From: Egicoccus sp. AB-alg6-2
Lineage (GTDB): Bacteria > Actinomycetota > Nitriliruptoria > Nitriliruptorales > Nitriliruptoraceae
NCBI RefSeq assembly: GCF_041821025.1
Contig: NZ_JBGUAY010000006.1
Span: 62,001-126,000 of the forward strand
DNA: 64,000 bases
Direction: 5' to 3'
In this document: positions 9,707 through 32,120 of the stretch, one piece after another
How the letters are laid out: the number at the start of each line of letters is the position of its first letter
Position numbering within the stretch: position 1 is the stretch's first letter
The notes under the pieces: generated by a model
Told to the model about the DNA's origin: nothing
Databases searched by the model: none
What the model saw: only the letters and a program-made list of their open reading frames with translations
Program-made: the position numbers and the translations under genes

Positions 9707-9719
9707 CCGCCTGCGTCGT

Positions 9720-9806
9720 CATGTCACGCAAGCTCATCCATGTCGCGCCGATCCCGCACCGGTGCGGCGCTGCCGCGACATCGAGGTGGAGCCGCGACAT
9801 GATCGG
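9720..9806. repeat. 87-bp structured repeat, copy A
   Basis: This element is about 93% identical over 87 bp to the one at 10,808. It contains the perfect 14-bp palindrome CCGCACCGGTGCGG, flanked by ATGTCGCG on the left and CGCGACAT on the right. A further outer pair of the same octamer is partly conserved. It can therefore fold as a long nested hairpin. It starts 14 bp after the stop of the GT-C gene. Confidence 0.9.
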
Positions 9807-9882
9807 CGGGGCGGGCACGCGGACCACAGGGTGGGCGAGCGCCGTGGGTGTCGCCAGGCGGGGTGATGGCAGCATCCGCCGC

Positions 9883-10806
9883 ATGCCGAGTGTCGACGAT
9901 CGTGCCCTGGACATCGCCCGGTCGCAGCGTGGGCTGGCGACGCGCCGGCAACTGCTCGACGCGGGGGTGTCGCCAGCGACCATCACCCGTCGCCTGCAGA
10001 ACGCGCGGTGGTCGGAGCCGGTGGCCGGCGTGGTGGACGTCGGGACGCACGAACCGACGTGGCACGGACGGCTGCAGCAGGTCCTGCTCGCCACCGGCCC
10101 CGCATCGTGGGTCTCGCACCGCTGCGCCGCCTATCTGCACCGCTTCCTCGACGTGGACGAGCCGGGCCACCTCGACATCCTGGTACGCCGTGGACGTCAC
10201 ACCGCCGTCGGAGCGCTTCGGTTGCACACCACGCTCGGGCTGGCCGACGACGAGACGACGGCGGTGTCCGGGCTGCGGTGCACCACCCGAGCCCGGACAC
10301 TCCTCGACCTCGCTGCCACGACCGCCACCGACGAGCTCGAACGGCAGGTGCTGGAGCTCGCCCGGCGCGACCGCACCGCGTTCCGCCAGCTCGGCGGACT
10401 GCTCGCCCGCTATCCGACGATGCCCGGCCGACGTCGACTGCTGACGGTCCTGGCCCGGCAACCCGAGGCGATCGAGAAGCTCGGCTCCGCCTTGGAGGTG
10501 ATCGGTCTGCCGGCGCTCCTGCGCCACGGCGCTCCTGCTCCCACGTTGCAGTACCAGGTACGTGACCGTGGTGGAGCGGCGGTCAAGCGGGTCGACGCCG
10601 CGTGGCCCGACTTGTGGACGATCCTCGAGTTCGACGGCGCGGCCTACCACGACACGTCGGCCGCCCGACGCCACGACGCCGAGGTCCGGGACCGCATGCG
10701 GGCGTTGGGCTGGACCGTCGAGGTGTTGCGCTTCGCCGACCTCGACGGTCCCCGTCCCGCCCAGATCGCGGCCCGCCTGCGAGAACGCGCCGCCACCACC
10801 GCGTGA
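9883..10806 (+). CDS. AbiEi-like / DUF559 domain protein
   Basis: A 307-residue protein. Residues 5-60 form a small winged-helix region (IARSQRGLATRRQLLDAGVS, TITRRLQNARWSEPVAGVV) like the N-terminal antitoxin domain of AbiEi-family proteins. Residues of about 215-305 match the DUF559 (Vsr/PD-(D/E)XK-like) pattern: ILEFDGAAYHDTSAARRHD, then RDRMRALGWTVEVLRFADL. Such fusions are common and mostly uncharacterised in actinobacteria; a role in DNA binding or nuclease-linked defence is an inference. No toxin partner is adjacent. The gene is flanked on both sides by the 87-bp repeats, and its stop is only 1 base from copy B. This suggests the gene and repeat arrived together between two glycosyltransferase operons. 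Confidence 0.75.
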   Translation: MPSVDDRALDIARSQRGLATRRQLLDAGVSPATITRRLQNARWSEPVAGVVDVGTHEPTWHGRLQQVLLATGPASWVSHRCAAYLHRFLDVDEPGHLDILVRRGRHTAVGALRLHTTLGLADDETTAVSGLRCTTRARTLLDLAATTATDELERQVLELARRDRTAFRQLGGLLARYPTMPGRRRLLTVLARQPEAIEKLGSALEVIGLPALLRHGAPAPTLQYQVRDRGGAAVKRVDAAWPDLWTILEFDGAAYHDTSAARRHDAEVRDRMRALGWTVEVLRFADLDGPRPAQIAARLRERAATTA

Positions 10807-10807
10807 T

Positions 10808-10894
10808 CATGTCGCGGGAGCTCGTCCATGTCGCGCCGATCCCGCACCGGTGCGGGGCTGCCGCGACATCGAGGTGGAGCCGCGACACGATCGG
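10808..10894. repeat. 87-bp structured repeat, copy B
   Basis: This second copy exactly fills the gap between the stop of the plus-strand DUF559 gene (10,806) and the stop of the minus-strand glycosyltransferase (10,895). It keeps the central palindrome and all four ATGTCGCG/CGCGACAT arms, with the last slightly changed. Placed between convergent genes it could also act as a two-way terminator. Confidence 0.9.
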
Positions 10895-31932: not shown

Positions 31933-32120
31933 GTATGGGGCTCCCTCGAAGGTTGCAGCACCGCGCAAGGTAGGTGACCGGCGCGCGCGCCGTGGCCGTG
32001 TTGCGGAGACCGGACGCGACGTTCGGTGCCGTGATGCCACGGCGCGGTGGTGCGCTGAGGCCGAGGTAGACCCCGGGCTGACCGCACGACCGCGCCCTGG
32101 CAGCACGGCGGGGCAGCCGG

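Follow-up and report, generated by a model that had tools for sequence, protein, structure and literature searches.

The gene at 9883..10806 (+ strand) of the window, the whole 64-kb stretch of DNA analysed here, encodes a 307-aa protein (P0001) that is predicted to join an AbiEi fold to a Vsr/I-Bth0305I-like nuclease fold, and it stands between two copies of a palindromic repeat that is dispersed in the surrounding genome (G000, 3.74 Mb in 24 contigs). Homologs of this gene elsewhere in Actinomycetota are bracketed by repeats of their own, and the pairing of gene and repeat is established. We lean, modestly, towards the view that gene and repeat form a selfish nuclease-and-repeat system in which the protein drives the spread of the repeat, binding, cutting and the causation of copying being steps that we infer.

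The nuclease gene and its two bracketing repeats

Copy A (9719..9802, ends approximate, + strand) lies 5' of the gene and corresponds to G000:C6:71722-71799 with 1 mismatch to the repeat pattern, whereas copy B (10807..10890, ends approximate, + strand) lies 3' of it and corresponds to G000:C6:72810-72887 with 0 mismatches. Each is a palindrome of ~84 bp made of four 7-bp TGTCGCG sites with the spacing 7-N12-7-N26-7-N12-7, that is, two direct sites at a distance of 19 bp, then a centre of 26 bp, then two inverted sites at the same distance of 19 bp. The sites of copy A are TGTCACG (9722-9728), TGTCGCG (9741-9747) and CGCGACA (9774-9780 and 9793-9799), and those of copy B are TGTCGCG (10810-10816 and 10829-10835) and CGCGACA (10862-10868 and 10881-10887). 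The perfect palindrome CCGCACCGGTGCGG is central in both copies, within the 26-bp centre, and the nested arms ATGTCGCG/CGCGACAT are common to both, the first arm of copy A being ATGTCACG and the last arm of copy B CGCGACAC. The first-pass annotation had described a single gene flanked by two 87-bp elements, about 93% identical, with this central palindrome and these arms; the pair, the palindrome, the arms and the single 307-aa gene are all present, but the unit measures ~84 bp and the gapless alignment of the copies is 91% identical over 94 bp. As it had also noticed, copy B fills exactly the gap between two convergent stops, from the TGA that ends the nuclease gene (10804-10806) to the stop of the opposing gene (10895). 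By inspection, both neighbours, upstream on the + strand and convergent on the minus strand, appear to encode glycosyltransferase-type proteins; no AbiEii-like toxin was seen beside the nuclease gene, which is alone between the two repeat copies.

Within the window this arrangement is singular. A search for arm plus core found 2 places only, copies A and B (0 in 100 shuffles), and when the 64 kb were scanned motif-blind for pairs of direct and of inverted 7-mers, period 19 gave these two copies only (score of at least 27) and eleven other periods gave just two isolated matches. In a flank-repeat test across the window, the nuclease gene alone stood out among 624 positions.

Profile matches of P0001 are below threshold: AbiEi_4 reaches 23.4 bits (cut-off 25) with residues 6-38, in the part of the gene at 9886..10047 (+ strand) that also has a fold match, MTES_1575 (PF18741) reaches 18.7 bits (cut-off 38.2), and PF13338 is below its cut-off as well. 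A PADLOC AbiEi profile matches at 4e-19. The AlphaFold model is confident (pLDDT 91); in it, residues 3-197 resemble the AbiEi antitoxin 6y8q (Z 13.7 over 184 residues) and include a predicted winged helix-turn-helix, and residues 201-304 (10483..10794, + strand) resemble the catalytic domain of I-Bth0305I (3r3p, Z 12.0) and Vsr (1cw0, Z 9.7). In an alignment of 18 homologs E205, D238, H256 and D265 are invariant and E249 and D251 nearly so, and by analogy with the Vsr/EDxHD family the invariant acidic and His residues would form a putative active site. The predicted folds fit the earlier description of the protein as AbiEi and nuclease-like, but DUF559 (PF04480) is absent from the profile matches of P0001 and that label is approximate.

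Dispersal, position and turnover of the repeat

The four-site pattern, with up to 3 mismatches, occurs 23 times in G000 (reversed-pattern control, 0), BLAST gives a similar picture, and the first-pass suggestion of a REP- or MITE-like dispersed element therefore stands. A single-sequence search found only three gene homologs in G000, so that most repeat copies stand alone; indeed 2 of the 23 adjoin such a nuclease gene, and the element does not always accompany an AbiEi/DUF559 gene. Among the 21 copies whose gene context was examined, 11 are convergent, 10 tandem and none divergent. They mostly lie directly after stop codons, and at six the TGA abuts the repeat (flanks read by inspection; at L024 an inspected short plus-strand ORF disagrees with the automatic context call). 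Between copies the motif sites are conserved far more than the spacers, and spacer identity averages 47% (0.47; shuffles give 0.28 and at most 0.30, the flanks 0.32-0.33), which argues for common descent of the whole unit; conservation drops at the unit edges. No flanking duplication recurs around the 21 copies, in agreement with the first reading, and to our knowledge REP/RAYT elements are likewise expected to leave no target-site duplication.

An exact four-site scan of 84,980 species found no species besides the source, as expected if each lineage has its own motif; a viral-contig match to three of the four sites is isolated and looks like chance. Rfam has no match for the repeats. The left arm of the copy at L014 is longer, with four 19-bp units (40 bases before the repeat), and the number of sites per arm can thus grow.

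Four copies were followed through their flanks into three congeners, and at all four sites the gene ends are ~80-90% identical and the TGTCGCG repeat is missing, so that empty sites do exist and the repeats turn over quickly. At the site of L015, both neighbour genes are still adjacent in G003, and the ~50 bp that separate them leave no room for the repeat; at that of L009, the congeners have the tRNA and its terminator followed by unrelated DNA. The site of L023 has no repeat in G003 and G002 and a different element, of GGTGACG type, in G001. This GGTGACG-type repeat (L142) lies ~40-150 bases downstream of the gene end that is the homolog of the one at L023, and either two repeats arrived independently at one site or the motif was converted in place.

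Copies that follow the 3' ends of genes and often separate convergent ones are what ordinary bidirectional terminators would look like, and the two copies in the window could have come from a local segmental duplication. Both explanations, which the first-pass annotation had named as its possible undoing, are contradicted, and together we consider them extremely improbable: terminator-like hairpins separate from the repeat, resembling intrinsic terminators, stand beside the copies at L006, L009 (after the tRNA), L020 and L027, the 23 copies are dispersed, and the examined congener sites lack the repeat. The hairpin as such fares less well than the dispersed palindrome, the other part of the first reading. 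Dyad symmetry is clear and copy B is predicted to fold better than shuffles (copy A not clearly so), but stem pairs across the family show no covariation beyond shuffles. A selected hairpin is therefore not supported, and from its sequence the repeat looks like a set of duplex binding sites.

Such binding sites need not move. In a non-mobile model, the protein would be a nuclease that controls its own expression (defence- or toxin-antitoxin-like) through the bracketing copies as operators, and the copies dispersed in the genome would act as a regulon, as insulators or as chromosome-organising sites. Copy A does lie in the 5' region of the gene, the PADLOC AbiEi profiles match P0001, and both the high conservation of motif sites relative to spacers and the stem pairs without covariation are as this model would have them; moreover, the promoters of AbiEi and Rv2827c contain 23-bp inverted repeats, two and four respectively, to which these proteins bind (PMC7319586), and such binding is autoregulation of the required kind. 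We nevertheless consider the model unlikely, because none of 21 copies lies between divergent genes and nearly all are at gene 3' ends, the examined sites are not conserved in congeners, the copies share descent beyond their motifs, and copy B is 3' of a gene with no adjacent AbiEii-like toxin gene.

Gene-repeat pairing in relatives and across Actinomycetota

Homologs of the gene are present in 87 of 296 sampled Actinomycetota genomes, many of which have 7 or more. At 58% of 45 loci the 300-bp flanks on the two sides of the homolog have a repeat in common that exceeds the 99th percentile of mismatched pairs, and a shared flank repeat with a score of at least 16 was found at 23 of 39 homolog loci versus 2 of 77 local controls (p = 7e-8), which upholds, phylum-wide, the proposed link between element and AbiEi-nuclease gene; ~40% of homolog loci have no shared flank repeat in the alignment test. 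When 11 flank repeats were compared with 11 genomes, each matched its own genome only, among the matches listed. The listed counts are 74, 30, 28, 21, 12, 10, 9, 7, 2, 1 and 1, which are upper bounds for copies as they include both strands and overlapping tandem matches; copy counts of the other families are those among 40 candidates scored per genome in DNA searches. Eight of the 11 tested repeats are clearly dispersed, and those of G253 and G300 are at their own locus only, among the matches listed. At L137 (G113:C9) the homolog has 37-bp tandem arrays of AACCCAGGGTT/CCCCTCCAGGGG palindromes on its flanks; such arrays are found many times over in G113, and the 96-99% identity of some dispersed copies there suggests a recent spread.

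A tighter profile search gave matches in Nitriliruptoraceae only, plus two weak ones; all named close relatives of the gene belong to this family, which makes G000 a probable member of it and gives the phylum its name here. The closest orthologs, in G003 (65%) and G001 (64%), are at other loci and have four-site arrays in their flanks with related motifs (TGTGACGCC; TGTCACGCC and TGTCGCG). The G000 paralog at C6:10226-11131, outside the window, is flanked on either side by a pair of copies of a different repeat; this second family (GTGATGC/GTGCGG type) is dispersed, with a copy in the window at 32031..32106 (- strand), and three tandem copies occur at G000:C5:136382-136673. Besides this family, dispersed gene-linked families were found in G003 (two) and G010 (one); none of these families occurs in G002, which lacks a close homolog. 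The repeats E1, E6 and E7 matched at their own locus only, and at least one further E6-like copy exists. In G001, whose genome is 77% complete, a dispersed family with motif CGGTCGAG (for example L041 and L044-L053) was found without a linked nuclease gene; it is either an orphan family or one whose gene is on a missing contig.

The 19-bp period appears in the motif-blind scan also at homologs with different motifs, and the Nitriliruptoraceae motifs, aligned by eye, are variants of [TG]GT[CG][AG][CT]GCC. T-first motifs go with the protein clade L031/L054/L055 (support 99/98) and G-first motifs with the other clades; motif variants thus follow the protein tree, and protein and motif would appear to co-evolve. 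T-clade orthologs occupy three different loci in three congeners, which suggests that the gene itself moves. Several homologs (L032, L054, L058, L068, L056, L059 and L063) share a chromosomal spot, marked by a conserved upstream gene ending in ..EYYADDYLPE or by a conserved convergent downstream gene, and have differing repeats; the position of the gene can therefore predate its present motif.

Movement of the gene could also be by homing, the nuclease cutting empty repeats and repeat-gene-repeat entering by homologous recombination, with the repeats spread by other means. Orthologs at differing loci in three congeners, a gene between two repeat copies as a homing product would be, and a nuclease domain nearest to that of a homing endonuclease, I-Bth0305I, all agree with this, but it leaves the spread of the repeat and the empty sites unexplained and no second gene-filled repeat of TGTCGCG type exists in G000, and we hold it to be quite unlikely. 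The repeats might instead be MITEs of an unrelated transposase, with nuclease genes inserting beside them. Their MITE-like size fits, as do the undispersed gene-linked families and the one dispersed family without a known gene; this is very unlikely, however, since motif variation tracks the nuclease tree and the pairing is found again in many genera, where the repeats are unrelated. The target-site duplication that a MITE of a DDE transposon would leave is also missing from the flanks of the 21 copies. Y1 transposases speak against it too: Y1_Tnp (PF01797) was found in none of seven genomes of the group and was positive in 5 control genomes. A RAYT as mobiliser is rejected on the same search and on the fold of P0001, AbiEi plus Vsr-like.

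Proposed mechanism and comparison with known systems

Returning to the nuclease-driven system that we favour, its steps would be as follows. The AbiEi-type winged-helix module would bind the four 7-bp sites of the cognate palindrome cooperatively, at copy A in its own promoter region, at copy B 3' of the gene and at the ~20 dispersed copies; we infer that recognition of the cognate repeat through this module is very likely. By analogy with AbiEi and Rv2827c and their promoter repeats, copy A may also serve autoregulation. The Vsr/I-Bth0305I-like module would nick or cut DNA at or beside the bound repeat, and repair would copy the ~84-bp unit into new intergenic sites, mostly just after stops, and could carry the gene along or leave it behind. 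The nuclease could provide mobility through breaks at new sites or through homing into repeat copies, and co-evolution of protein and motif would give each lineage its own repeat family. End joining as a necessary route is rejected, since Ku is missing in the carrier G144 although the G144 repeat is dispersed. Against protein-driven copying, the movement of a repeat to non-homologous sites by a PD-(D/E)XK-type nuclease lacks an explanation; the missing target-site duplication, the non-dispersed gene-linked repeats, the gene-less G001 family and the ~40% of loci without a shared repeat are further points against it. Whether there is a phylum-wide class of mobile elements, in which an AbiEi-Vsr/EDxHD nuclease spreads its own co-evolving palindromes with no transposase, is in our judgement evenly balanced.

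The closest parallel is that of REP/RAYT systems (REPtrons, TIRtrons), in which a gene is flanked by palindromes that are also intergenic, mostly in convergent or tandem contexts, with family-specific pairing (PMC3733652). Here too, the dispersed intergenic palindromes match those flanking the gene, and a trans-acting enzyme with non-autonomous palindromes is proposed; however, the enzyme is an AbiEi-fold and Vsr-like nuclease and not a Y1/HUH transposase, and the unit is an 84-bp four-site array as opposed to a 20-40 bp stem-loop. The earlier idea of a REP/RAYT-like logic with a different protein family accords with the dispersed palindromes and with the absence of Y1 from the seven genomes. 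P0001 shares its AbiEi fold with the AbiEi antitoxins and Rv2827c (type IV toxin-antitoxin), but is fused to a nuclease domain without an adjacent AbiEii-like toxin, and its presumed binding sites are also 3' of the gene and dispersed. With I-Bth0305I and Vsr (EDxHD) it shares the nuclease fold and the invariant acidic and His positions; unlike that of I-Bth0305I, its gene is outside any intron or intein as far as seen, is bracketed by cognate palindromes and encodes an AbiEi module. Caulobacter VsrA (DUF559) is likewise Vsr-like, with an unclear role and a functional link to a cytosine methyltransferase, and the available part of its description mentions neither repeats nor an AbiEi module (PMC12907096). 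In the open-access literature we found no description of a link between AbiEi-nuclease or DUF559 genes and cognate repeats.

Taken together, this points towards a hitherto undescribed family of selfish elements that spread repeats, set apart from REP/RAYT by an unrelated enzyme and by the recurring pairing, which on a cautious view could be a variant of the REP/RAYT kind. If our reading is true, it would account for the abundance of AbiEi-nuclease genes in Actinomycetota and show where many of the anonymous intergenic palindromes of these genomes come from, and spread in the REP/RAYT manner would then be known from a second, unrelated type of enzyme. Copying by the nuclease, if it takes place, would amount to a new chemistry for short repeats in bacteria, and close homologs with one-base motif differences would offer natural protein-site pairs for testing.
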